A DNA stretch of 64,000 nt from Planctomycetaceae bacterium (GTDB lineage: Bacteria > Planctomycetota > Planctomycetia > Planctomycetales > Planctomycetaceae). The DNA is taken from assembly GCA_020426325.1 (NCBI GenBank), contig JAGQQG010000027.1:1-64000 (forward strand). The letters run 5' to 3'. A program made the translations under genes and the position numbers. The notes beneath the pieces are model-generated. The model saw only the letters and a program-made list of their open reading frames with translations. It had not been told where the DNA came from and did not search any database. Shown here piece by piece: positions 18,108 to 37,841 of the stretch (positions within the stretch are counted from its first letter, which is position 1; each line of letters begins with the position of its first letter).

Positions 18108-20656
18108 TCCCCGGAGAACGAACCATAGTGACGGGACAAGCCTGCGTGAATCAGGAAGCGGCTGGAGACCGCATCAGAGAGCTTGGGAAATCGATCGTCC
18201 ATTTGTTTCAGCAAGCGTTCCAGTGCCGGTCGATTCCCACTGGCTTCAACTCGGGCCAGGTCGGTCACAACGGCCAGTCGCACGGCATTCCGTAAGCTCA
18301 GGGCGATCCGTTGCTCGGGACTGATGACCGCTGCATGCTCGCCTCGGGGAAGTTCCTCCAAGTGCGATTCGATGACCTGCAATTGATATCCGATCGAACG
18401 CGGATTTGTTTCGTCGACCAGTAGAAGATCCAGAACAGGAGCGGTCTGCATGGTGGCGAGGTATCGAGTGCGGTACGTCATAATGCTGTCGGCTGTTTGC
18501 AGCACCGTTTCCAGCATCGGCTGTTCTTCCTCAATCGGAAAGGCCAGGGTCCCGCGTAGCAGCACCGACGTCTGCCACGCGCGTTCGATTCGCCGTCCCA
18601 AATCGAGGAAACGCCAACCCTGTCCGCGGGTCATGCTCTCCTGTGCCAGCCCGGCAAAGGCTAAAAGCTCGGTCAGGAGTTGATCGAGGAGATTCTGGAC
18701 ATCGGAGGTATCTGTCGCGGCACGCCCAGTTGGCTTTTGAAAGTCTTCGTCAATCCGGTGAATCACCCGCCATGCATCGACAGAGACGCGGTCTCGCACG
18801 ATCGACACAAGTCGCGCCGCTTCGTTGAGCGTTGCCCGGAGGCTGCGCGAACGGGTCGGGTCGAAGATCGCCTCTGGGAGGACTTCTTCAACGGCTGGCA
18901 GAGAGGTCCTCAGTCCCTCGACGACGAAGTCGGGATCGAGCTGACCCTGTTCAGCGAGCACTCTGAACAACCGTTGAAGAACCTCTGTCGACTGCACTTC
19001 GCCAGTCATAGTCGAAAGGACGGTTCTTAGCAGTCGGGCGTTCCCCTCCGCTCGCTCCACTTGCCGGCCCAGCCAGAACAGATTGTCTGCCACGCGACTG
19101 GGAAGATCGGAGCCGCTTCGACGTAAGGCAACTGTCTCTCCCGGTGGAGCAAGGAGTGACACCCGTTCGATTGGCTGTTCAGAGCAGACCCAGACGTCCT
19201 GGCTTCGTTCCCCGGAAGTCATCGTAAAGTCGAGCAGGTCAGACTCAGGTGATACGCGAGCCAGTCCCCCAGGCAGCGCGACGAACCCATCATCGTGGTG
19301 AATGAGGAAACTGCGCAGCGCCACATGCCACGGGGCAATCCCCTCATCCGTCATGGCCGGTGCCGTCGAACGAACGACGGATTCCTGCCCGACAAACAGT
19401 TCCGGTCGCGCGCGGAGACGTGTCACCAACTCCGCACGTTTTTGATCCGACATCTGTCCCGGATGAAGGGGCGGCTCGTTCTGGTGACGAAATGCATTTC
19501 GAATCACGAGCGAATCCAGATTCTTCAGAACATACTCCAGAGCTTCCGGTTGGCCACACCACCACGTGGCCACCGAGGGCATCTTCAGCGGTTCACCCAG
19601 CAAGAACTGGCTGATACTCGGCAGAAACGCCTGCACGATCGGCGACTCGACGAGACGGGTGCCCAGAGCGTTGCAGATGACAACGTTGGAGGAACGCAAG
19701 ACCTCCAACAAGCCGGAGACGCCCGTATGCGAGTTCGGGTTCAATTCGACAGCATCGCAATCGTCTTCGTCCAGTCGTCGAAACAGCACTTCGACCGGAA
19801 GCAGGCCTCCCAACGTCTTCAGCCAAACACGGTTTTCGCGAACGGCGAGATCGCCTCCCTCCGCAAGTGTGTATCCCAGATAACGAGCAAGATAAGCATC
19901 CTCAAAGTAGGCTCGGCTTGCTGGTCCCTTGGACCATAGAACAATCCGCGGATTGTCACGCGATCGGGGAGCGATGTCTCGCAAAGTCTCCTGCATCGCA
20001 ACGAAGAACGGGGCGAGACGTTGGATCTTGCAGTGACGAAACGCTTGAGGCAGCATCCGGGATGTCGTGATGCGATTCTCAAGAGAGTGCCCCAAGCCGA
20101 ACGGCGCCCTGGTCCGGTCACCCATCACCCACCAGCGTCCATCAGGAGCACGTGCCAGATCCGCTGCATACAGAGTGAGATATTGTCCCTCCGGCGTGGG
20201 CAGTCCGTGATACGCAGGATAGAAACCCGGATGACCGTAAAGTACATCCGGCGGCAGGATTCGCTCGCGCAGCAGGTTTTGAGGGCCGTAGAGATCACGA
20301 AGGATCAGGTCGAATAAACGAGCCCGTTGTCCGAGTGACTCCGTGATGCCATTCCACTCCAGTTCCGGCAAGACGAGTGGTACGGCATCGAGCATCCAAG
20401 GTCGCGAGGCGACTCCTCCCATATCATAGGGATTGAACGTGATACCATCGTTGGCGATTTGTTTTTGGGCAAGATGCCAGCGACGATGGACTTCATCAGG
20501 CCCCAACCGGTTCAGTTCACCGATCAGCGTCTGCCAATGCGGTCTGAGTCCGCTGTTGGGATCAAAAGCTTCATCGTAAACGCCCGTCAGGGGCTGATAA
20601 CCCGAGAGCAGCGTTTTGGGAGAGGGAGGTGAAATCGAAACCGATTCGGTCATCAA
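18104..20656 (-). CDS. Circularly permuted ATP-grasp – alpha-E fusion protein
   Basis: An 850-residue cytoplasmic protein. Residues about 1-480 form a circularly permuted ATP-grasp (ITFNPYDMGGVASRPWMLD, ILRDLYGPQNLLRERILPPD, WVMGDRTRAPFGLGHSLENR, SHTGVSGLLEVLRSS, then the ALPGGLARVSPESD segment). From about residue 525 (LPSRVADNLFWLGRQVERAE) to the end is an alpha-E domain (formerly DUF403), an all-helical domain rich in acidic and arginine residues. ATP-grasp enzymes make amide bonds through acyl-phosphate intermediates; the alpha-E domain is of unknown activity. The gene overlaps the neighbours on both sides by four bases, so translation is coupled. It is the fused counterpart of the separate genes at 25178 and 24046. 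Confidence 0.92.
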   Translation of the reverse strand: MMTESVSISPPSPKTLLSGYQPLTGVYDEAFDPNSGLRPHWQTLIGELNRLGPDEVHRRWHLAQKQIANDGITFNPYDMGGVASRPWMLDAVPLVLPELEWNGITESLGQRARLFDLILRDLYGPQNLLRERILPPDVLYGHPGFYPAYHGLPTPEGQYLTLYAADLARAPDGRWWVMGDRTRAPFGLGHSLENRITTSRMLPQAFRHCKIQRLAPFFVAMQETLRDIAPRSRDNPRIVLWSKGPASRAYFEDAYLARYLGYTLAEGGDLAVRENRVWLKTLGGLLPVEVLFRRLDEDDCDAVELNPNSHTGVSGLLEVLRSSNVVICNALGTRLVESPIVQAFLPSISQFLLGEPLKMPSVATWWCGQPEALEYVLKNLDSLVIRNAFRHQNEPPLHPGQMSDQKRAELVTRLRARPELFVGQESVVRSTAPAMTDEGIAPWHVALRSFLIHHDDGFVALPGGLARVSPESDLLDFTMTSGERSQDVWVCSEQPIERVSLLAPPGETVALRRSGSDLPSRVADNLFWLGRQVERAEGNARLLRTVLSTMTGEVQSTEVLQRLFRVLAEQGQLDPDFVVEGLRTSLPAVEEVLPEAIFDPTRSRSLRATLNEAARLVSIVRDRVSVDAWRVIHRIDEDFQKPTGRAATDTSDVQNLLDQLLTELLAFAGLAQESMTRGQGWRFLDLGRRIERAWQTSVLLRGTLAFPIEEEQPMLETVLQTADSIMTYRTRYLATMQTAPVLDLLLVDETNPRSIGYQLQVIESHLEELPRGEHAAVISPEQRIALSLRNAVRLAVVTDLARVEASGNRPALERLLKQMDDRFPKLSDAVSSRFLIHAGLSRHYGSFSGE

Positions 20657-23600
20657 TGTCTCGCAGCGCGGCGCATGTCCAACGTATGCGGGAATGCCGC
20701 ATTCTCCTCTTCAGGGGGAATCGACATTGGACCGGGGGTATGTCCCATTTGAAAGAACCGTGCTGCCCGTCTGGCTTCGGCAGAATTAGCGTTCACCGGA
20801 AATGTCTCGTAATTACTGCCGCCGGGATGGGAGACGTGGTAAGTACACCCGCCTATGGATCGTCCTGTCCATTGGTCTAGGATATCAAACACCAGGGGAG
20901 AGTGAACAGGAATTGTTGGATGAAGGCAACTCGGCGGAGCCCAGGCCCGGTAGCGAACGCCTGCGACGTATTCTCCCTGCACGCCTGTGGACCGTAGCGG
21001 AACCCGTCGCCCATTGCATGTGATGACGTGGCGGGTTCCAATCATCCCAGACACCTTGACTTGCAGCCGTTCGACTGACGAGTCGACATACCGCACCGTG
21101 CCACTGGCTCCCGGTTCCTCACCCAGCACATACCACGGTTCGATGGCCGATCGCAGTTCGAGGTGCAGGTCCTGCAGGGTCAGATTGCCCAGCACGGGGA
21201 AACGGAACTCATAATGCGAGGCAAACCAGCGTCGATCGAAATGAATCCCCGACAATCTCAGATCGTCCAGGACCTCACCAAAATCTTTCCAGGTGAAGTA
21301 CGGCAACAGGAAACGATCGTGCAGGCTCGTGCCCCAGTCAATCAAGGGGTGCTCGTGGGGACGCTCCCAGAACTTGGCAATCAGGGCGCGAATCAGCAAC
21401 TGCTGAGTCAGACTCATTCTTGCGTGCGGAGGCATCTCAAAACCGCGTAGCTCGATCAACCCGAGCCGACCGGTGCTGCTGTCCGGCGAATAGAGTTTGT
21501 CGATGCAGATTTCTGCCCGATGTGTGTTTCCCGTCAGGTCAATCAGCAGATTCCGGAACAACCGATCGACCAGCCAGGGCGGGGACCATTCTCCGGGTTT
21601 TGGAACGAGAGAGAATGCCAGTTCGAGTTCATAAAGCGCATCCTGACGACCTTCATCGACACGTGGTGCCTGACTGGTTGGGCCGATGAACTTTCCGCTG
21701 AACAAATAGGACAACGAAGGATGATTGACCCAATAGCCAATGATGCTCTTCAGGAGATCAGGCCGACGCAGGAACGGACTCGCGGCCGGCGTCTCTCCTC
21801 CGAGCACGACATGATTGCCGCCACCGGTTCCCGTATGAGCTCCGTCCAGGTCAAACTTCTCGGTGCCTAGCCGGGTCTGTCGAGCGTCCTCATAGAGTCC
21901 CGTGGTCGACTCGACCAACTCCTCCCACGATGCGACCGGCTGAGTGTTGACTTCGATCACGCCCGGATCAGGAGTGACCTTGATTTGACTCATTCGAGGG
22001 TCCTGAGGAGGCAAATATCCTTCCAGGACGATGGGCATCTTCAGGTCTAATGCTGTCCGTTCGATCGCACCGACGAGATCCAGATAGTCCTCAAGATGAT
22101 CCACCGGCGGCATGAAAACGTGTAGCCGACCATCTCGCGGCTCCACGCAGAGTGCCGTTCGTACGACCTGATCGGGGGCAACTTCGTCCTCGTCCGATTC
22201 GCTGGACTTGATCTGCTCGGAGACTCCTTGGATCCCCACCGCTTCGGGTTGTCCGACAACGAAATCCTGACGCCGGTAAGGGACCTCCGGCAACGGGGGC
22301 CGCTCCTCTAATGGATCGGGAGGATAGGGCCGGGGCAGTCTCGACTCCGGCACATACGGGAGAATGTCGAGCGGCAACCTCAGCCCCATGGCGGAATCGC
22401 CCGGCAACAGGAACATGCGATCCGGGCGGACCGGCCAAGGGCCACTCGTCCAGCGAGGCTTCGCCTGCCAGTACTGTCGCTTGATCGGCATCACAAATCC
22501 GGCAGGCTCACCGACACCGCGCTCGAAGACCTTCGCCATTCTCGCACGTTCTTCAGGGTCCTTGAGCTTAGGGTCCGTCGGGTCGACATTGACGGGGAGT
22601 CTCCGCTCCTTCAACAGGTAGTGAGCCACATCTTCGTAGGCGGGGACGATGTAGCGGGCCTTCACTCCCAGGACGGCAGCGAGATGAGCTGCGAATCGAC
22701 GGGCCGCATCCGGCCCCAGCCCATAGTCCTTGTTCGCCTCGGCAATCAGCTCGGAATTGAGCCAAATCGGCTCTCCGTCCTTCCTCCAGTACAGCCCAAG
22801 GGCCCAACGGGGCAGAGACTCTCCCGGATACCACTTCCCCTGACCAAAGTGCAGCATGCCACCAGGGGCAATCCGATCTCGAAGACGTTTAATGAGAGTT
22901 TCGGACAAACGACGTTTCGTCGGACCGACAGCCGCGGTCGTCCATTCGGCACCATCCATGTCATCGATCGAGACGAATGTCGGTTCGCCGCCGATCGTCA
23001 GTCGGACATCGTTTTCACTCAACCTGCGATCAACCTCGTGTCCCAGTTGCGTGATCTGTTCCCACTCTTCATCGGTGTACGGCTTGGTGACACGCGGATC
23101 TTCATGGATCCGTGTGACCTGCATGTTGAACGAGAAGTCGACCTCGCAGGGCTCGATGCCGCCGGTAATGGGTGCCGCTGAACTGGGATTCGGCGTGCAT
23201 GCGAGCGGGATGTGCCCTTCACCTGCCAGGAGACCCGACGTCGGATCGAGCCCAATCCAACCGGCTCCCGGGAGATAGACTTCCGTCCAGGCATGCAGAT
23301 CGGTGAAATCCACCTCCGTGCCCGATGGTCCGTCCAGAGCTTTGACATCGGGCGTGAGCTGGATGAGGTAGCCGGAGACAAACCGAGCGGCCATTCCCAG
23401 GTGTCGCAGGAGCTGCACGAGCAGCCAGGCGCTATCGCGGCACGACCCTGACAGCAACGTCAGCGTCTCCTCAGGGGACTGCACTCCCGGCTCCATCCGG
23501 ATCAGGTACTTGATGTCCTCCTGAAGCTGCTGATTGAGTTCCACCAGAAAATCAATCGTTCGCTTTTCGGAACGGTCAATTCGATCGAAGTATTTGGAGA

Positions 23601-23979
23601 AATTCGGGCCTGGATCGTAGGTCTCCAGAAACGGCTTCAACTCGTTCGCCAGCCAGGGATCGTATTTGAAAGGAATCTTTTCAGCAGACTCTTCAATAAA
23701 AAAGTCGAACGGGTTGATGACCGCCATCTCAGCAACGAGATCGACCTCGACACTCAATTCCCGAGCCGGCTTGTTGAAGACAAACCGGGCCAGATAGTTC
23801 CCGTGAGGATCTTGTTGCCAGTTGATGAAGTGGTCAGCAGGCTCCACTTTCAAGGAGTAACTGTGAATCGGCGTCCGGGCATGGGGAGCGGGCCGCAGAC
23901 GGACAATCTGCGGCCCCAGTGACACGAGACGATCGTAGGTGTAGACGGTCTTGTGGTTCAGGGCGACGCGAATCGGCAT
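20653..23979 (-). CDS. Transglutaminase – DUF2126 protein
   Basis: An 1108-residue cytoplasmic protein. Residues 1-100 are the bacterial transglutaminase N domain (HKTVYTYDRLVSLGPQIVRL). The transglutaminase core follows at about 150-290 with Cys in LLSGSCRDSAWLL, His in DLHAWTEVYLP and Asp in IGLDPTSGL. The remaining 800 residues are DUF2126 (RLTIGGEPTFVSIDDMDG, LHFGQGKWYPGESLPRWALG, GGGNHVVLGGETPAASPFLRRP), a domain with glutamine-synthetase- or ATP-grasp-like features of unknown function. The ATG at 23979 starts 66 bases after the alpha-E gene. It is the central and largest member of the predicted amidoligase operon. Confidence 0.93.
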   Translation of the reverse strand: MPIRVALNHKTVYTYDRLVSLGPQIVRLRPAPHARTPIHSYSLKVEPADHFINWQQDPHGNYLARFVFNKPARELSVEVDLVAEMAVINPFDFFIEESAEKIPFKYDPWLANELKPFLETYDPGPNFSKYFDRIDRSEKRTIDFLVELNQQLQEDIKYLIRMEPGVQSPEETLTLLSGSCRDSAWLLVQLLRHLGMAARFVSGYLIQLTPDVKALDGPSGTEVDFTDLHAWTEVYLPGAGWIGLDPTSGLLAGEGHIPLACTPNPSSAAPITGGIEPCEVDFSFNMQVTRIHEDPRVTKPYTDEEWEQITQLGHEVDRRLSENDVRLTIGGEPTFVSIDDMDGAEWTTAAVGPTKRRLSETLIKRLRDRIAPGGMLHFGQGKWYPGESLPRWALGLYWRKDGEPIWLNSELIAEANKDYGLGPDAARRFAAHLAAVLGVKARYIVPAYEDVAHYLLKERRLPVNVDPTDPKLKDPEERARMAKVFERGVGEPAGFVMPIKRQYWQAKPRWTSGPWPVRPDRMFLLPGDSAMGLRLPLDILPYVPESRLPRPYPPDPLEERPPLPEVPYRRQDFVVGQPEAVGIQGVSEQIKSSESDEDEVAPDQVVRTALCVEPRDGRLHVFMPPVDHLEDYLDLVGAIERTALDLKMPIVLEGYLPPQDPRMSQIKVTPDPGVIEVNTQPVASWEELVESTTGLYEDARQTRLGTEKFDLDGAHTGTGGGNHVVLGGETPAASPFLRRPDLLKSIIGYWVNHPSLSYLFSGKFIGPTSQAPRVDEGRQDALYELELAFSLVPKPGEWSPPWLVDRLFRNLLIDLTGNTHRAEICIDKLYSPDSSTGRLGLIELRGFEMPPHARMSLTQQLLIRALIAKFWERPHEHPLIDWGTSLHDRFLLPYFTWKDFGEVLDDLRLSGIHFDRRWFASHYEFRFPVLGNLTLQDLHLELRSAIEPWYVLGEEPGASGTVRYVDSSVERLQVKVSGMIGTRHVITCNGRRVPLRSTGVQGEYVAGVRYRAWAPPSCLHPTIPVHSPLVFDILDQWTGRSIGGCTYHVSHPGGSNYETFPVNANSAEARRAARFFQMGHTPGPMSIPPEEENAAFPHTLDMRRAARH

Positions 23980-24045
23980 AGCAGGTCAGTCGAGTAAATC
24001 TGCGAAACGGGAGAAACAACGAAATAGCAGACGAGTCCGTTCCGG

Positions 24046-25065
24046 CTACTGATACTGCTGTTGAACCTGAGTTGCTTGGATTTGTTCAACAGGTCGCATG
24101 GCGAAGAAGGTTTCGTGGATGGCACTGCCAACATCGTTGAGCTGCCTTTGCAGATCATCCACAACTTCATGGAGTCCGCGGTTGATGATGCTGTCCACGT
24201 CAGCATAGACGAGTTCAGCCCTCAAACGACCGAGACGTTGCTCCGGTTCGTTGCGATAGGCTCCCAAGGGAGAGCCGACAATCTGGTGAACGGAATCGTT
24301 CGCCCAGTTGACGCAGAAACTGATCGCACGAGGGAAGCGACCATCAAGCACCAGGAATTCGACGACCCGGTGCACAGTGATCGTGTGATACCGTTTGCGA
24401 AACGCTTCAAAGGCACTGACTGACCGAAGAACAGCCGACCACTGCAAATCGTCCAGCGTCGTCCCCACGTCATAGGCATTCGGCAGCAGGGTAAAGTATT
24501 TCACATCCAGAATGCGGCTGGTCTTGTCCGCTCGTTCGAGGAGGCGTCCCAGATTGGCGAAATGCCAGCCTTTGCCTCGTGGAAGCGTCGCATCCAGAAT
24601 GCCGTTAAACAGATGACTGTGCTGTTTGACTTCCTGATAGAAGTCGATTTGAGCCGGCCCATTCAGTCGTCCGTTCGATGCGGCCCGCTTGACGAAGTGA
24701 TAGAACGAATTCAGTTGTTCCCAGGCCTCAGACGAGATCGCCTCACGCACTGTTCGAGCATTCTCGCGGGCTGCATTCAACGATGACAGAATCGAGTTTG
24801 GGTATTCGGCATCGAATGTCAGAAAACGAAGCACGTTTTCCGGAGTGGAATCTCCGTAATGCTCCCGAAAGAATTCAACATCCCCCGTCGTTTGCACGAG
24901 CGGGTCCCATTGCTGATTGGTATTCTCAGGCTGATCGAGGATGACGTTGAGCGTCACGTCGATGAAGCGGGCCGTGTTCTCGGCGCGTTCGACATAACGC
25001 GCCATCCAGTAAATCGATTCTGCAACGCGGCTAAGCATTGCGAAACTTGCCTTTTCCAGAGTCAT
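24046..25065 (-). CDS. Alpha-E domain protein
   Basis: A 339-residue all-helical protein of the alpha-E family (formerly DUF403). The opening MLSRVAESIYWMARYVERAE and the segments RGKGWHFANLGRLLERADKT and FLVLDGRFPRAISFCVNWAN are typical. The activity is unknown; the family occurs almost only beside, or fused to, circularly permuted ATP-grasp proteins, and the fusion at 18104-20656 in this same operon supports a physical partnership. The ATG at 25065 is used; one nine codons later would also fit the family. It lies 112 bases downstream of the ATP-grasp gene. Confidence 0.93.
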   Translation of the reverse strand: MTLEKASFAMLSRVAESIYWMARYVERAENTARFIDVTLNVILDQPENTNQQWDPLVQTTGDVEFFREHYGDSTPENVLRFLTFDAEYPNSILSSLNAARENARTVREAISSEAWEQLNSFYHFVKRAASNGRLNGPAQIDFYQEVKQHSHLFNGILDATLPRGKGWHFANLGRLLERADKTSRILDVKYFTLLPNAYDVGTTLDDLQWSAVLRSVSAFEAFRKRYHTITVHRVVEFLVLDGRFPRAISFCVNWANDSVHQIVGSPLGAYRNEPEQRLGRLRAELVYADVDSIINRGLHEVVDDLQRQLNDVGSAIHETFFAMRPVEQIQATQVQQQYQ

Positions 25066-29916: not shown

Positions 29917-30927
29917 TCACTGCATAACGAGCACCTTGGCGCCGCGGACGGGGTGATATTTCAGTTGACGCAATGCTTCGTTGGATTCTTCCAACGGGAA
30001 TGTGGTGACCGTCGGATAGATCGGGATCTCGGCTGCCAGCGGCAGAAACTCGCGAATGTCAGCTGCGGTGATGTTGGCGACACTCTTGATCTCGCGTTCC
30101 ATCCAGAGATCATCGTGATAGGAGAGGTTCAACAACTCCGACTTGTCGTTGTCTTCCTTGCGAATGGCGTTGACGACCAGACGTCCTCCCGGAGCCAGAT
30201 TGGGCAGCGCCTTCACGATCGGTGTCCACGCGGGAGTGGTGTCAATGATCGCCTGCAGTGGTCGAGGTGCTCGTTCACCTGTGTCACCAGCCCAGACGGC
30301 TCCCAATTGCAACGCAAACTCTCGTGACTGCGGATCACGGGCAAACACGAAGACTTCAGAATTCGGAAAACGATGACGTGCCAGTTGCATGACGAGGTGT
30401 GCTGAGCCGCCGAAGCCGGTCAGACCAAGTGGCTGACCGTCTTCCAGGTTGGTCAATTTCAGCGCGCGATGACCGATTCCCCCGGCACACAGCAGTGGAG
30501 CGGCTTCTGTGTCCGAGAATACGTCAGGGATGGGATAGGCGTAGTGTTGCGATACTGTCATGTACTCGGCGTAACCACCATTGACGTCCCTGCCGGTCGC
30601 GCGAAACAGCGGACTCAGGTTTTCATCCGGTTCTCCGCTGGATGAATGAATCCAGCCAACGCCCACCCGATCACCCACAGCATGTGAGGTCACTTCAACA
30701 CCTCGATCGACCACGCGTCCGATGACCTCATGTCCGGGTACAACGGGCAGGTGTGGCGGTGGAGTCCGCCCCTCGATCTCGTCCAATTCCGTGTGACACA
30801 CTCCGCATGCCAAGACTTGCAGAAGCAGTTCATCCGGTGCTGGTACTGGAACGGGGATCTCACCGAGTGACAGCGGTTCAGAATCCAATTCGATTGGTGC
30901 AATCTGCTTCAGCAGCATGGCTCTCAT
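29917..30927 (-). CDS. Zinc-dependent alcohol dehydrogenase lacking the structural-zinc cysteines
   Basis: About 336 residues from the ATG at 30927 (MRAMLLKQIAPIE), with GGAG a few bases upstream; the frame extends to 30972 without homology. GroES-like domain with catalytic zinc ligands C in GVCHTELDEIEG, H in GHEVIG and C in APLLCAGGIG; Rossmann motif GLTGFGGSAHLVMQ. The lobe that normally holds four structural-zinc cysteines reads GWIHSSSGEPDENLSPLFRA here and has none. It is related to the AdhA-like alcohol dehydrogenases. Divergent from the aldolase operon, with a sigma-54-like promoter at 30979-30995. Probably interconverts an alcohol and an aldehyde with NAD(P) under stress or low oxygen. 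Confidence 0.9.
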   Translation of the reverse strand: MRAMLLKQIAPIELDSEPLSLGEIPVPVPAPDELLLQVLACGVCHTELDEIEGRTPPPHLPVVPGHEVIGRVVDRGVEVTSHAVGDRVGVGWIHSSSGEPDENLSPLFRATGRDVNGGYAEYMTVSQHYAYPIPDVFSDTEAAPLLCAGGIGHRALKLTNLEDGQPLGLTGFGGSAHLVMQLARHRFPNSEVFVFARDPQSREFALQLGAVWAGDTGERAPRPLQAIIDTTPAWTPIVKALPNLAPGGRLVVNAIRKEDNDKSELLNLSYHDDLWMEREIKSVANITAADIREFLPLAAEIPIYPTVTTFPLEESNEALRQLKYHPVRGAKVLVMQ

Positions 30928-30978
30928 GCATTGTCTCCACTTATGAATGGCGATGCCTCTCTGATTCTGCACAACTTC

Positions 30979-30995
30979 TGCACATCAAGTACCAA
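30979..30995 (-). promoter_or_regulatory. Weak sigma-54-like promoter for the alcohol dehydrogenase gene
   Basis: On the minus strand the sequence reads TTGGTACTTGATGTGCA. The GG and GC elements are exactly 12 bases apart, as in -24/-12 promoters; TGGTAC differs by one base from TGGCAC and GTGCA by one from TTGCA. It lies 52 bases before the dehydrogenase ATG. By itself it could be chance; the strong opposing promoter and the dyad between them raise its credibility. Confidence 0.45.
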
Positions 30996-31022
30996 GGGTG
31001 TTTGGTTTCCCAGAGTCATCTT

Positions 31023-31052
31023 TGACACATTGTGGACAGTGAGAATGTGTCA
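31023..31052. promoter_or_regulatory. Perfect 9-bp dyad, candidate enhancer site
   Basis: TGACACATT (31023-31031) and AATGTGTCA (31044-31052) are exact inverted copies with a 12-base spacer. The centre lies about 110 bases upstream of the -12 element of the aldolase promoter and about 55 bases from that of the opposite promoter. This is the usual placement for a binding site of an NtrC-type activator of sigma-54 polymerase. The cognate regulator is not in the window. Confidence 0.6.
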
Positions 31053-31133
31053 GATTGTCTCACGCTGTGTCTGAATCGCACGGCAAACTCCAGTGCAAGC
31101 GTTGGATTGTCCCAAGAGTAAAGAATGTGGGAA

Positions 31134-31149
31134 TGGCACATCGATTGCT
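31134..31149 (+). promoter_or_regulatory. Strong sigma-54 (-24/-12) promoter of the aldolase operon
   Basis: TGGCAC-ATCGA-TTGCT matches the -24/-12 consensus TGGCAC-N5-TTGCW at every defined base, and the GG (31135-31136) and GC (31147-31148) pairs are 12 bases apart. A transcript would start near 31160, about 40 bases before the aldolase ATG at 31203. This predicts dependence on RpoN and an ATP-dependent enhancer-binding activator. Confidence 0.75.
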
Positions 31150-31202
31150 TTTGTTGGGCTTCGACTCTCTTCTCTCTTGCGCGATCTCAATGAGGACGAA
31201 CC

Positions 31203-32255
31203 ATGTCGAACTGGATGACCGAACTATTGGGGGATGAGACAGAAAGCCTGCTCTCGCACGAATGTCACACGATCGACAAGAGTCGGTTGTCATTGCCGGG
31301 CGGCGATTTCGTGGATCGGGTCGTCATGGGAAGCGATCGGTCACCACGCGTGTTACGAAGCCTGGAATCGCTGTTCGATCATGGAAGACTGGCAGGGACA
31401 GGTTACGTATCCATTCTGCCGGTGGACCAGGGGATTGAGCATTCAGCAGGCGCATCCTTCGCGGTAAACCCGGATTACTTCGATCCGGAAAACATCGTCA
31501 AACTGGCGATTGAAGGGGGTTGCAATGCGGTCGCGTCAACCATTGGAGTCTTGGGCGCGGTCTCACGGAAGTATGCTCATAAGATTCCTTTCCTCGTGAA
31601 GTTGAATCACAACGAGTTGCTCACGTACCCAAATTCCCACGATCAGCGAATGTTTGCTTCTGTTCAACGGTCGTATGACCTGGGCGCGATTGCTGTGGGG
31701 GCAACGATCTACTACGGGTCGGCCGAATCCCGAAGGCAGATCGAGGAAGTCTCCAAAGCGTTCGAGGCTGCACACGAACTCGGGATGGCATGTGTTCTCT
31801 GGTGCTATTTGAGGAATCCTGCCTTCAAAGCGGATAAAGATTATCACCTGAGTGCAGACCTGACGGGACAAGCCAATCATCTCGGAGTCACACTTGAAGC
31901 GGACATCATTAAACAGAAACAGGCAGAGAACAACGGAGGTTTCCGGGCAATCAAATTCGGAAAAACGTCCGATCTCGTCTATGAAAAACTCACAAGTGAC
32001 CATCCGATTGACCTGTGTCGTTATCAGGTCGCGAACTGCTACATGGGCCGGGCAGGGTTGATTAACTCGGGAGGTGCGTCTGCGGGAGATTCGGATCTCG
32101 CACAAGCGGTGCGGACAGCTGTGATCAATAAGCGAGCAGGCGGAATGGGACTGATCAGCGGACGCAAGGCGTTTCAGCGGCCACTCAAAGACGGCATCCA
32201 ATTACTGAATCGCATCCAGGATGTTTACCTTGACGAAAGCGTCACGATTGCCTGA
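31203..32255 (+). CDS. fbaB: Class I fructose-bisphosphate aldolase
   Basis: A 350-residue protein, the same length as E. coli FbaB, which it follows along its whole length ([60 protein letters not shown]). Lys237 in ADIIKQKQ corresponds to the Schiff-base lysine. It splits fructose 1,6-bisphosphate into dihydroxyacetone phosphate and glyceraldehyde 3-phosphate, and is often used for gluconeogenesis. The start has GAGGA upstream. It heads a run of plus-strand genes (host-attachment-like, hemerythrin, GalT) and has its own sigma-54 promoter, so its expression is probably tied to a special stress or nutrient state rather than housekeeping glycolysis. Confidence 0.95.
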
Positions 32256-32299: not shown

Positions 32300-32785
32300 A
32301 TGACATTCAAACACGAGGCAGTCAGACCATCGACCACTTGGATTCTTGTCGCAGATCGTGCGCGGGCAAAGTTGTTCGCAGGCGAATGGCCCGAATTGTC
32401 TGACTTTCATGAAATCGAAGACTTCGCTCACCCCGAGGGAGGAGCCCATCAACGTGATGTCGAGTCGGACAGACCGGGACTCTTTCGGACATCCAACGGG
32501 GGTGGCTCTGCCGCAAGCGACTTGACCGACTTCGTACACAGGACTGCGACGGAGTTTGCTCGAGAGTTGGTTGACAGATTGCAGCACGGAAAAGACACGA
32601 ACGCGTATGGACGTCTTGTCATCATAGCACCAGCCATGCTTCTGGGATTGCTTCGGGACGAGCTTCCCGCTCCGCTCACCAAACTACTTGTGGCAGATCT
32701 GGACAAGGACCTGACACACCAAAATAACGAGTCCATTCAGGCTCACGTACGAGACCTGCTCGCATTACCGTCGGGCCAGACCTGA
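32300..32785 (+). CDS. Host-attachment family protein
   Basis: A 161-residue soluble protein of the host attachment family, first named from an Agrobacterium attachment locus. TTWILVADRARAKLF near residue 12, the DRPGLFRTSNGG segment with the aromatic-free acidic linker, FARELVDRLQHG and LVIIAPAMLLGLLRDELP are family features; the terminal LTHQNNESIQAHVRDLL completes it. The fold resembles archaeal release factor/eRF1 domain 2-like proteins. The biochemical role is unknown; in many free-living bacteria the gene sits with stress and hypoxia genes, as it does here. It starts 44 bases after the aldolase and is probably in the same operon. Confidence 0.92.
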   Translation: MTFKHEAVRPSTTWILVADRARAKLFAGEWPELSDFHEIEDFAHPEGGAHQRDVESDRPGLFRTSNGGGSAASDLTDFVHRTATEFARELVDRLQHGKDTNAYGRLVIIAPAMLLGLLRDELPAPLTKLLVADLDKDLTHQNNESIQAHVRDLLALPSGQT

Positions 32786-32808: not shown

Positions 32809-33240
32809 ATGAGTCGTATTATCTCAGAGCTGGAAGTGGCTGCACTCAAGAGAGAACACTCTGCGCTGGACGATGAGATTTTCAAATGGCGCCAATGGTG
32901 GGAACAACTCAATGAGATGGGACAGCCTCACTTTGGTGAAATGGGAGATCGTCTTGCACATTTCCGAGAGCATCTTTCGTCTCACTTTGAACACGAAGAG
33001 AGCCAGGGATGCCTGTCTCTGATGAAACATCTTCCGGAGAAAGGGGCGGATCAGGCAGAGGCACTTCGCAAGGAGCACCCGCAGCTGCTTGGCGAGCTCG
33101 ATCATCTGATATCTCAGCTTCAGCAATGTGAACCGGCATTCACGTGCTGGGGCAGCGCGCGCGAGGAGTTTGAGACATTCCTTGATCAACTCAATTCGCA
33201 CGAAGAGTCCGAGGACGCTCTCCTGGAGCAGTTGCAGTAG
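32809..33240 (+). CDS. Hemerythrin-like domain protein
   Basis: A 143-residue four-helix protein. His17 in ALKREHSALDDEI, the cluster HFREHLSSHFEHEE near residues 55-68, HPQLLGELDHL near 95 and HEESEDALLEQL at the C-terminus supply the His and acidic residues of a hemerythrin-type di-iron site. It may bind oxygen or NO, or sense redox state. GGAGGG immediately before the ATG gives a strong ribosome site. It starts 23 bases after the host-attachment gene and ends two bases before galT, so operon membership is clear. With the truncated haemoglobin nearby it supports a low-oxygen or nitrosative-stress theme. Confidence 0.9.
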   Translation: MSRIISELEVAALKREHSALDDEIFKWRQWWEQLNEMGQPHFGEMGDRLAHFREHLSSHFEHEESQGCLSLMKHLPEKGADQAEALRKEHPQLLGELDHLISQLQQCEPAFTCWGSAREEFETFLDQLNSHEESEDALLEQLQ

Positions 33241-33242
33241 TC

Positions 33243-34286
33243 ATGCCTCATCTTCGGTTTGATCAGACGACGGCCGACTGGGTTGTCTTTGCGCCCCTGC
33301 GAAATTTGCGTCCTCACACGAGGTCCGCAGAAGTTTCGAATCGCGGTGCTGCTGGTGTCGACGCTCCCTCGAACTGCCCTTTTTGTCCCGGCAATGAGGG
33401 AATGACGCCTCACGAGATTGATGCAGTCCGGGCACAGGACGGAACCGGGACGAATTGGCTTGTGAGAGTTGTCCCCAATAAGTTTCCTGCTCTCCAGATT
33501 GAGGAGGACAACCGACAGACTCAGAAGGGTGATTTGTTCCGACAGATGGGAGGGTGCGGCGCCCATGAAGTCCTCATCGAGAGTCCACAACATGATGCCT
33601 TCCTTGGCAGTGAGCCAATCGACCACGTCTGTCATGTCATCCGGATGTTGCACAGTCGATATTGTGATCTGATGCGGGATACACGATTTCAGACGATTGT
33701 GATCTTCAAGAACCATGGCGAAGGTGCGGGAACATCGCTGCAGCACCCGCACTGGCAAATCATCGCGACTCCTGTAGTGCCTCGAATGTTTCGGCACCAA
33801 TACATCGAAGCCACTGACTATTTTGACCGAACGGGGCACAGCCTGTATGAGGCGCTTCTGGATGAAGAGCTGAAACGCAACGAACGCGTGATTGTCACGA
33901 ATGACGAGTTTGTTGCCCTGATGCCCTTCGCCTCTCACCTGCCGTTTGAGACGTGGGTGATTCCACGGCGACAACAGGCCAGCTTTCGCTCGTTTCAGGA
34001 ATCTCAGATTGAGCCGTTGGCTCACATCCTTCAGGAGATTCTGATCAAACTTTATGTCGGTCTGGAAGACCCGGATTTCAATCTGACGGTCGATACTGCG
34101 TCACGGGGGGATGAAGACGAACCATTCTTCCGCTGGCACATCCGCATCCTGCCGCGTCTGACGACGACCGCTGGCTTTGAGTTGGGAAGCGGCATGTCGA
34201 TCAACACCGTGCTTCCCGAAGAAGCGGCCAAGTTCCTCAAGGGGGGAAATCATACGCTTCAGCAGTCCGATTCTCACGAGAACTGA
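33243..34286 (+). CDS. galT: Galactose-1-phosphate uridylyltransferase family protein
   Basis: A 347-residue HIT-superfamily protein. CPFCPGNE near residue 46 is the zinc site, VPNKFPAL near 80 begins the core, and SLQHPHWQI near residue 177 contains the HPHxQ active-site motif with the nucleophilic histidine; RWHIRILPRLTTTAGFELG is the C-terminal block. The family transfers UMP between hexose 1-phosphates; some members act on other sugars or nucleoside phosphates. It begins two bases after the hemerythrin stop. No galactokinase or UDP-glucose epimerase is nearby, so the true substrate is uncertain. It is likely controlled by the sigma-54 promoter of the aldolase. Confidence 0.9.
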   Translation: MPHLRFDQTTADWVVFAPLRNLRPHTRSAEVSNRGAAGVDAPSNCPFCPGNEGMTPHEIDAVRAQDGTGTNWLVRVVPNKFPALQIEEDNRQTQKGDLFRQMGGCGAHEVLIESPQHDAFLGSEPIDHVCHVIRMLHSRYCDLMRDTRFQTIVIFKNHGEGAGTSLQHPHWQIIATPVVPRMFRHQYIEATDYFDRTGHSLYEALLDEELKRNERVIVTNDEFVALMPFASHLPFETWVIPRRQQASFRSFQESQIEPLAHILQEILIKLYVGLEDPDFNLTVDTASRGDEDEPFFRWHIRILPRLTTTAGFELGSGMSINTVLPEEAAKFLKGGNHTLQQSDSHEN

Positions 34287-34354: not shown

Positions 34355-36175
34355 ATGAATGCTTCGTGGGGTGGCGAGATGAGACGATGTGAGTCGTCCC
34401 CGCTGGCCCTTCCGTGTATCGTGAACTCTGGTTTTACATCTCCATCTTCCAGTCAATATGCGGAGTCTGTCCTCTTGGAAGTGTCAGAGATCCCACAGTT
34501 CGTACGAAATGCAGGTCGTTTTCGCGAAGTTGTCGCAATTCTGACCAAGCATGGATTGGCCGACTGGCTTTCAACATCGTCGCCGAATTGGGTCCAGCGA
34601 TTTCGTGGAAAAGATGAGAGACCCGACCGTTGGGAATTAACGACAGAACAACGGCTTCGTGTGGCATTCACGGAATTAGGGACCACGTTCATCAAGTTGG
34701 GACAAGTCCTGAGTACCCGTCCCGATCTCGTGGGGTCCGTCTTAGCTGAGGAACTCTCCGAACTCCGAGCCAACACGCCAGCTGACAAGCCCGAACTCGT
34801 GCGAGCAATGATTGAGTCGGAACTCGGAAGTCCGGTCGAAGAGTTATTCGCCACGTTTGAATCAACGGCGATGGCATCTGCATCGATTGGTCAGGTGCAT
34901 CGTGCGACGACTCACTCCGGTCGACACGTTGTCGTGAAAGTTCAGCACGCGGGTATTGAGAAACACATCATCAATGACCTCGAAATCATGTGCAAACTGG
35001 CAGAACTCGCGGAGAACCATTCGGCCAACCTGCGTCGTTACCGGCCAGTGAAGACGACTCGCGAATTCCGCAAGACCCTCATGCGCGAACTCGATTTCAA
35101 CCGTGAGCAAAGAAACATGGTCCGGTTTCGCAGGAACTTCGACGATGATCCCGGCATTGTTTTTCCGGAACCGCACCTGGAGCTTTGTTCGCGACGTGTC
35201 CTGACGATGGATCTGTTTGAAGGCATCAGTATCAGCGACAAGAAACAACTGGAATCATCCGGATACGATCTTGAGGTTGTCGCCCGCCGAGGTGCAAATC
35301 TTTTTCTTGAGATGATCTTTCGTGATGGCTTCTATCATGCCGATCCGCATCCGGGAAACCTGCTGGTGATGGGCAGTGAATTCTGCGGGTCAGACAAGAA
35401 ATCAACTACGTCAGCAGAGGGGCCTGTCATCGGCGTTCTGGACTGCGGAATGGTCGGCCAGATTGATGATGTCCTGCGCGAAGACCTGGAACTGGCACTC
35501 TATGCGGCCATCAATCAGGACGCTGATCACATGTCGGAAATTGTCGCGCGTCTTGGTGAGGTCCCTGCTGATTTTGATGAAGCAGGTCTGCGGAATGATA
35601 TTCAGGAGTTTCTGGCGGAATACACCAACCAGACACTCGACAAGTTTGACTTGAGCGGCTGCTTGAACGGCATCATCGACATCATTCGAAGTCATCAGAT
35701 TTATCTGCCTGCCAAGGTCGCCATGTTGCTCAAGGTGCTGATCATGCTTGAGGGGACCGCTCAACAGTTGAATGCCCGATTCAGCCTGGCTGAGATGATT
35801 GAGCCGTATGGCGAGATCGCGATCCGCCGACGGTATTCTCCCAGACGCTTGTTTGCACAGATGAAGTCGAGGTTTCAGGATTGGGATCGTCTCGCAGCGA
35901 TTCTGCCGAAGGACCTGGCAGACATCCTGCACAACATCAAACGTGGAAAATTCGATGTCCACCTGGAACACCGCAACCTCGAACCAGTTGTCAACCGCCT
36001 GGTACTTGGCATCCTGACCGCAGCCCTGTTCATCGGGTCCGCATCCCTCTGCAGCTATGAAGTTCCACCGGTTTACCGTGGATTCTCGGTTCCTGGATGC
36101 CTGGGAAGCGCAGTTTCGCTGGCAATGGGATGGTCAATTACACGAGCAATCCATCGATCAGGCCGATTCAAGTAA
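34355..36175 (+). CDS. ABC1/UbiB-family atypical kinase
   Basis: A 606-residue protein. The family KxGQ motif is in FIKLGQVLSTRPDLVG (about residue 110), the A-rich loop is ASASIGQVHRAT, the ATP-binding lysine lies in VVVKVQHAG, and the catalytic-like DPHPGNLLVMG motif is near residue 335. Two C-terminal hydrophobic segments (from LVLGILTAALFIGSASL) anchor it in the membrane. UbiB-type proteins support quinone biosynthesis, probably by extracting lipophilic precursors from membranes with ATP. The first 35-40 residues are not conserved, so the start may be internal; an ATG at 34379 or a later TTG are possible. It is separated from galT by 68 bases. Confidence 0.88.
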   Translation: MNASWGGEMRRCESSPLALPCIVNSGFTSPSSSQYAESVLLEVSEIPQFVRNAGRFREVVAILTKHGLADWLSTSSPNWVQRFRGKDERPDRWELTTEQRLRVAFTELGTTFIKLGQVLSTRPDLVGSVLAEELSELRANTPADKPELVRAMIESELGSPVEELFATFESTAMASASIGQVHRATTHSGRHVVVKVQHAGIEKHIINDLEIMCKLAELAENHSANLRRYRPVKTTREFRKTLMRELDFNREQRNMVRFRRNFDDDPGIVFPEPHLELCSRRVLTMDLFEGISISDKKQLESSGYDLEVVARRGANLFLEMIFRDGFYHADPHPGNLLVMGSEFCGSDKKSTTSAEGPVIGVLDCGMVGQIDDVLREDLELALYAAINQDADHMSEIVARLGEVPADFDEAGLRNDIQEFLAEYTNQTLDKFDLSGCLNGIIDIIRSHQIYLPAKVAMLLKVLIMLEGTAQQLNARFSLAEMIEPYGEIAIRRRYSPRRLFAQMKSRFQDWDRLAAILPKDLADILHNIKRGKFDVHLEHRNLEPVVNRLVLGILTAALFIGSASLCSYEVPPVYRGFSVPGCLGSAVSLAMGWSITRAIHRSGRFK

Positions 36176-37266: not shown

Positions 37267-37734
37267 TCAGGGCATGACAAAATCATGTTCTTCCGGCCGA
37301 ACCGTCAGCACCGGACAAGGTGCCTTGCGGATAACTCTCTCCGCTGTGCTTCCGATCAAGACATGGGCCAGACCCGTGCGGCCATGAGTGCCCAGCACGA
37401 TCATGTCGATCTCCTGCTGTTTGGCATAACGAATGATCTCCACGAACGGTGAGCCAATCTGAACGACTCTTTTGACGTGATCGATACCAATGAGCCAGTC
37501 GGATTCCGGGAGATCCTCGATGGCGGTCGCTGCACGATTCTGGAGGTCATTCAGTTCTGCATCAGAAACCGGAGCCCCCATGATTGGGTCGGGCATCGTC
37601 AGGGATGCATCCATGACATGAAGCAGATGCAGCTGTGCACCGAACCGCTTGGCGAACTCACAGCCGTAACGTAACGCGTGATTACTGAACTCACTGAAAT
37701 CAGTGGGAACAAGAAGTTTTTGAAGTTGAATCAT
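37267..37734 (-). CDS. Universal stress protein (ATP-binding type)
   Basis: About 155 residues from the ATG at 37734; the adjacent ATG at 37737 is only two bases from AAGGAG, so the second is better placed. The protein is a single UspA domain with LLVPTDFSEFSNHALRYGCE at the start and the nucleotide-binding signature GTHGRTGLAHVLIGSTAERV near residue 120, followed by CPVLTVRP. Such proteins bind ATP and support survival under hypoxia, starvation or oxidative stress. A paralogue at 40065-40550 shares the unusual C-terminal RP(E/A)EHxFxMP tail. Convergent with the nucleotidyltransferase-like gene. Confidence 0.93.
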   Translation of the reverse strand: MIQLQKLLVPTDFSEFSNHALRYGCEFAKRFGAQLHLLHVMDASLTMPDPIMGAPVSDAELNDLQNRAATAIEDLPESDWLIGIDHVKRVVQIGSPFVEIIRYAKQQEIDMIVLGTHGRTGLAHVLIGSTAERVIRKAPCPVLTVRPEEHDFVMP

Positions 37735-37841
37735 CATTGCTCCTTTTGTTTCATGTGCGGCAACGAACTGACCTGAAACTCGACTGAGTGATCGCGTTTA
37801 AGTGTCTGCAAAGAGGTTCTGCCTTGGAACTCTGCTGAAAA

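Follow-up and report, generated by a model that had tools for sequence, protein, structure and literature searches.

The 275-bp intergenic region (30928-31202) that separates a leftward alcohol dehydrogenase (ADH) gene from a rightward run of genes headed by an aldolase, within a 64,000-nucleotide stretch of a Planctomycetaceae genome (hereafter the window), is best explained as a sigma-54 control region of a conserved planctomycete stress regulon. It is reasonably probable that an enhancer-binding protein (bEBP) encoded on contig C33 of the same genome opens both promoters of the region through a site of the GTGC-N6-GCAC type. Judged from sequence comparison, the region very probably switches on the aldolase/hemerythrin operon and probably also the alcohol dehydrogenase. 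The genes and elements concerned are as follows.

29917-30927, minus strand: zinc alcohol dehydrogenase (ADH_N, ADH_zinc_N), with its ATG at 30927
30979-30994, minus strand: weaker -24/-12-like element TGGTACTTGATGTGCA, facing ADH, with two mismatches and the GG/GC cores intact
31023-31052, no strand: exact dyad TGACACATT-N12-AATGTGTCA, no support as an enhancer
31067-31081, no strand: proposed activator site (UAS) GTGTCTGAATCGCAC, a degenerate GTGC-N6-GCAC with one mismatch and a 7-base spacer instead of 6
31134-31149, plus strand: -24/-12 sigma-54 promoter of the aldolase operon, TGGCACATCGATTGCT, a perfect TGGCAC-N5-TTGCT
31203-32255, plus strand: class I fructose-bisphosphate aldolase of the DeoC/LacD family (Pfam DeoC; NF006707 above cut-off)
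32300-32785, plus strand: Host_attach/baeRF-family protein (PF10116, PF18856), presumed second gene of the operon
32809-33240, plus strand: hemerythrin HHE protein (PF01814)
33243-34286, plus strand: GalT, galactose-1-phosphate uridylyltransferase (PF01087/PF02744; TIGR00209 above cut-off)
34355-36175, plus strand: ABC1/UbiB-type kinase (PF03109)

A longer open reading frame for ADH begins at GTG 30972, but orthologue alignments start at ATG 30927; the protein scores near TIGR02822, under the cut-off. Along the aldolase-baeRF-hemerythrin-GalT-ABC1 kinase run the intergene gaps are 44, 23, 2 and 68 bp, which suggests a single transcript, and the kinase gene, behind the 68-bp gap, may close the operon. 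In the relative G085, a hemerythrin homologue (69%) lies immediately 3' of the aldolase, and in G058 a GalT homologue adjoins universal stress protein (USP) and APH-AAA genes; a hemerythrin beside GalT in G058 was dropped, as the merged contig does not bear it out. Scans for sigma-70-type promoters and for terminators gave no match inside the ADH-aldolase intergenic region, and an Rfam scan of 28-38 kb gave no RNA family. Farther along the window, a USP gene is located at 37267-37737, 3 kb past GalT, where a scan returned no recognisable sigma-54 promoter plus site. A minus-strand pair at 20653-25065, a transglutaminase/DUF2126 amidoligase gene and then an Alpha-E protein gene, belongs to a known cluster type.

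The sigma-54 promoter of the aldolase is very probably real, as indicated by its sequence and its conservation. A perfect TGGCAC-N5-TTGCT ahead of this gene had been claimed by an earlier, sequence-only reading of the window and is confirmed to the letter at 31134-31149 (+), its -12 element lying ~53 bp 5' of the ATG at 31203. A perfect plus-strand promoter arises in only 0.1% of Markov copies of the 275-bp region. In seven relatives, whose aldolase orthologues are 77-85% identical, a -24/-12 element is found 44-63 bp 5' of the aldolase ATG:

G085: TGGCACAACGATTGC
G075: TGGCACAACGGTTGC
G058: TGGCACGCCGATTGC
SV_7m_r (G281): TGGTTCGGAAGTTGC
Rhodopirellula rubra: CGGCGCACAAATTGC
Aporhodopirellula aestuarii: CGGCGCACGAATTGC
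G405: TGGACCGTTAGTTGC

More distant aldolases show no -24/-12 element at the 44-63 bp position. The conservation is specific to the promoter, because the surrounding intergenic DNA has otherwise diverged, and the position kept in seven relatives supports the sigma-54 control of the aldolase operon that the sequence-only reading had predicted. The genome encodes the machinery in question, with rpoN in a single copy (one Sigma54_DBD match, E 6e-62) and about 20 bEBPs recognised as strong Sigma54_activat matches. Genome-wide, sigma-54 sites with at most one mismatch number 272, compared with 282 for the reversed pattern, and are thus not enriched; in this genome, a consensus match alone is therefore weak evidence, and position and conservation weigh more. 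The perfect TGGCAC-N5-TTGCW sites number 15 genome-wide and many are intragenic, with others preceding genes for glutamine synthetase, an ammonium transporter and GroEL, named by eye from their first residues. The string TGGCACAGACATTYCT recurs in the same genome at C2:12586, C28:14135-14202, where it forms an inverted pair, and C52:4119, and is probably an interspersed repeat that mimics the -24 element and inflates consensus scans.

Between the two promoters, the exact inverted repeat with 9-base arms described by the sequence-only reading is present letter for letter at 31023-31052. That reading had some enhancer-binding protein acting on this dyad to drive both promoters, and the exactness of the arms, their centres 21 bp (two helical turns) apart and the position between the promoters would suit such a role. 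In addition, an intergenic TGACACG on contig C42 is likewise flanked by a divergent sigma-54-like pair, and TGACAC/GTGTCA is found in 5 of 19 regulon promoter regions. Yet repeats of this type occur at a chance number, with nine 9-bp-arm inverted repeats (gap 3-20) in the 64 kb against 7-9 expected, and one appears in 2.4% of Markov copies of a 275-bp region. A search of the 6.8-Mb genome, allowing up to 3 mismatches, returned only the window copy, and the TGACACG copy on C42 has no matching second arm. Conservation at orthologous genes, which the earlier reading expected of promoter and dyad alike, was found for the aldolase promoter in the seven relatives, while the dyad is absent upstream of their aldolases. 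Being unique, unconserved and at chance level, the dyad is improbable as the enhancer of this region, as is the reading built on it.

The half-site TGACACRWTGT has nine matches in the genome and is intergenic only in the window and on C42, where a second sigma-54-rich cluster (L050:2990-15520) includes a divergent sigma-54-like pair flanking TGACACGTTGTC. Its genes, named by eye, comprise a histidine kinase, an NtrC-type bEBP, an S2P-type protease, and NADH dehydrogenase-like and flavin monooxygenase-like proteins. The bEBP/kinase cluster on C42 was considered as the source of the activator for its half-site copy and its own divergent pair, and was rejected, as it lacks GTGC-N6-GCAC and a close orthologue is missing in several of the relatives with the aldolase promoter. 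The C42 cluster could be a sister regulon that uses a site of its own.

Among all 4-N-4 dyads, GTGC-N6-GCAC was common to the most upstream regions, five in number, one of which (L072) was dropped since the match is the -24 element itself; in Markov sets, the sharing reached a maximum of three regions, in 1 of 60 sets. At the aldolase loci the motif ranks first of 384 equal-GC dyads, accompanying 9 of 74 sigma-54-like sites against a mean of 0.22, a score to which some of the loci on which it was found contribute, the C33 loci being outside that set. At unrelated bEBP loci it is found in 0 of 89. The distance from GTGC-N6-GCAC to the aldolase -24 element is 31 bp in both SV_7m_r and G405, 69 bp in G058 and 71 bp in G085; G075, Rhodopirellula rubra and Aporhodopirellula aestuarii, three of the seven relatives, have no strict GTGC-N6-GCAC at the aldolase promoter. 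Searching 11 genomes for the motif 20-80 bp 5' of TGG-N8-TTGC gave 38 places, compared with 22 for the reversed pattern and 17 for a wrong promoter spacing (N9 for N8). The distances from site to -24 element cluster near 31, 41, 53, 62 and 72 bp and show helical phasing (R 0.58 at 10.25 bp, p about 5e-4), as would follow if the polymerase has to be approached by the activator on one side. Tandem copies of the motif, 20-21 bp apart, are seen upstream of the aldolase in G058 (L250:10818-10851) and G018 (L038), a spacing that would suit two activator dimers binding cooperatively; at L038, the usual promoter position has no clear sigma-54 element.

Two of the matches from the window's own genome fall in one stretch of contig C33 (L247), where reading of the sequence reveals five site-plus-promoter sets. 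These precede hemerythrin-Hsp20-bEBP(-VIT) genes, a USP gene, a cytochrome c gene, a second USP gene, and the genes for a calcium-type P-ATPase and a small CXXCH protein. Genes with the site upstream in the relatives include those for USPs, the bEBP itself, sensor kinases and PEP synthase. The P-ATPase, ADH and aldolase genes of the regulon are accompanied by a family of small CXXCH (cytochrome c-like) proteins that have no Pfam match (L068:4721-5161, L247:17380-18003, L271:9535-10023). The candidate activator is encoded in the same C33 stretch:

Contig C33, 38908-40341 (= L247:5908-7341): bEBP with a receiver, a sigma-54 AAA+ domain and a Fis-type HTH

Orthologues of this protein are found in G087 (89%), G281 (61%) and G405 (59%), all of which keep the C-terminal DNA-reading helix LGIHRRKLYRLL (IHRRKLYRLL-type), and the bEBP gene lies ~6 kb from the aldolase in G405 and ~17 kb in G281. 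A site plus promoter stands at the bEBP gene itself in G087 and at the bEBP operon in the window's genome, making autoregulation likely. The domains match those of NtrC/AtoC/ZraR-type regulators and the best NCBIfam scores are to the AtoC and NtrC models, but the protein falls far under every equivalog cut-off (AtoC 433 of 714 bits) and is thus none of the named regulators. Its neighbourhood and conservation point to the C33 protein as most likely the activator among the approximately 20 strong bEBPs, and the aldolase operon quite probably belongs to the GTGC-N6-GCAC regulon.

The promoter region of the window holds no strict GTGC-N6-GCAC, only GTGTCTGAATCGCAC, which was absent from the features listed by the sequence-only reading and proved weightier than the dyad it adjoins. 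The distances of GTGTCTGAATCGCAC to the aldolase promoter (52 bp) and to the ADH-facing element (72 bp) both agree with the phased spacing rule, and with one T removed it is identical by eye to the G085 site with flanks at 16 of 18 positions. A near-site phased with the plus promoter turns up in 1.4% of shuffles (p about 0.014) and one phased with both promoters in 0.7% (p about 0.007), figures that apply to a near-site recognised only once the motif was known. An ungapped matrix does not find it, giving a score like that of shuffled sequence. A comparable phased near-site is present at none of the other sigma-54-like pairs of the window. Nearly the same geometry recurs at two other divergent pairs, each with one site for both promoters. 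The C33 site is 52 bp away from the P-ATPase promoter and 71 bp away from the USP promoter that points the other way. For the G085 site, the distances are 71 bp to the aldolase promoter and 52 bp to a divergent -24/-12-like element directed at a CXXCH protein. It is likely that GTGTCTGAATCGCAC, rather than the neighbouring dyad, is the DNA site of the activator.

The second -24/-12-like element reported toward ADH, with two mismatches, is present as described at 30979-30994 (-). Since Markov copies of the region yield an element this good (score at least 12 of 14) at a rate of about 6% per strand, and ADH orthologues (loci L158-L167) have no comparable promoter upstream except for one weak match (L166), it could be argued that the aldolase promoter alone is sigma-54-dependent, that the ADH-facing element and the degenerate site arose by chance, and that ADH uses another promoter. 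This reading is unlikely, though to be taken seriously. Against it, the 52/72 spacing repeats that of two independent divergent pairs, a coincidence of phase with both promoters is rare in the shuffles, the intergenic region offers no sigma-70-type match, and in relatives ADH neighbours the same stress genes. In G087, of the same genus, ADH (80%) is the third gene after the P-ATPase and CXXCH genes, and in other relatives it adjoins hemerythrin, P-ATPase, Hsp20, USP, PEP synthase, baeRF or APH-AAA genes. The shared geometry, recognised once the motif was known, is the strongest argument for a functional ADH-facing element, and it appears fairly probable that this promoter works and that the degenerate shared site is used. 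Plausibly, ADH moved within the regulon and then gained a divergent promoter here. The control of divergent promoters by one shared activator, as the sequence-only reading had it, is thus retained at moderate confidence, on the geometry of two other pairs and the position of ADH orthologues among stress genes; the dyad as the site is not, nor is the ADH-side promoter kept at the orthologues.

It could also be speculated that the enhancer copy in the window has decayed, leaving the aldolase promoter either without its activator or dependent on one that acts from another site or from solution. While GTGTCTGAATCGCAC deviates from an otherwise strict GTGC-N6-GCAC and a strict site is likewise lacking in the three promoter-bearing relatives named above, the aldolase-side -24/-12 element remains a perfect match and the spacing of the near-site is the most frequent one, and decay seems rather unlikely. 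In the favoured explanation, RpoN-RNA polymerase would bind at 31134-31149 and wait there in the closed state, and probably also at the weaker element at 30979-30994. A response-regulator bEBP, most likely the C33 protein, would bind the degenerate GTGTCTGAATCGCAC between the promoters and open both of them via ATP hydrolysis. The predicted output is ADH from the leftward promoter and aldolase, baeRF, hemerythrin and GalT from the rightward one, and elsewhere universal stress proteins, the hemerythrin-Hsp20-activator operon and P-type ATPase-cytochrome operons would be co-activated.

Sigma-54 control in planctomycetes, which the sequence-only reading called poorly described, is not a blank, and the enhancer-binding proteins of Pirellula were reportedly the subject of an in silico study by Studholme and Dixon in 2004. 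Predicted sigma-54 promoters of Planctomycetia were surveyed in 2025 and are enriched at USPs (COG0589), NtrC/ZraR-type regulators (COG2204) and chaperones (PMC12316311), in agreement with the regulon proposed here. The survey proceeds by gene group; in its passages on these genes, neither an activator nor its site is named, and the word aldolase is absent from the text (PMC12316311). Beyond planctomycetes, the NmpRSTU system of Myxococcus xanthus likewise combines an NtrC-like response regulator with sigma-54 promoters, upstream palindromic sites, and USP and hemerythrin genes among the targets of NmpR, for which the signal is low oxygen (PMC11841059). However, the NmpR site is GCGCA-N5-TGCGC instead of GTGC-N6-GCAC, and its targets include cbb3 oxidase, hemN and pilR, a difference from the planctomycete regulon (PMC11841059). 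Moreover, no sensor kinase gene is seen beside the planctomycete bEBP. The lxa locus of Burkholderia cenocepacia (PMC6127331) and DosR-type regulons also unite several USPs with a heat-shock protein and are tied to low-oxygen persistence, yet lxa is tied to a CRP/FNR-type (FixK-like) regulator, whereas sigma-54 and an enhancer-binding protein are predicted to act here. The hemerythrin, USP, Hsp20, cytochrome and PEP synthase genes resemble the NmpR and lxa sets, suggesting by analogy a role in low oxygen or energy stress, either of which may be the signal of the regulon. The kind of system is known, and within the openly readable literature searched no paper was found that describes this regulon or names its activator or site.

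Whether one bEBP, acting via phased GTGC-N6-GCAC sites shared by divergent promoters, commands a whole planctomycete persistence programme is, in our estimate, evenly balanced. If so, the programme would include USPs, hemerythrins, Hsp20, a calcium-type P-ATPase, cytochromes, PEP synthase, aldolase, GalT and ADH, and would be a counterpart of DosR and lxa in which sigma-54 replaces the DosR- or FNR-type activator. Little work has addressed gene control in planctomycetes, abundant though they are. With a candidate activator, a list of targets and a site that obeys a spacing rule, the regulon can be tested in cultured strains such as SV_7m_r or Rhodopirellula rubra. Finally, one enhancer between opposed sigma-54 promoters at fixed helical distances would provide a natural test of how bEBPs serve two promoters at once.
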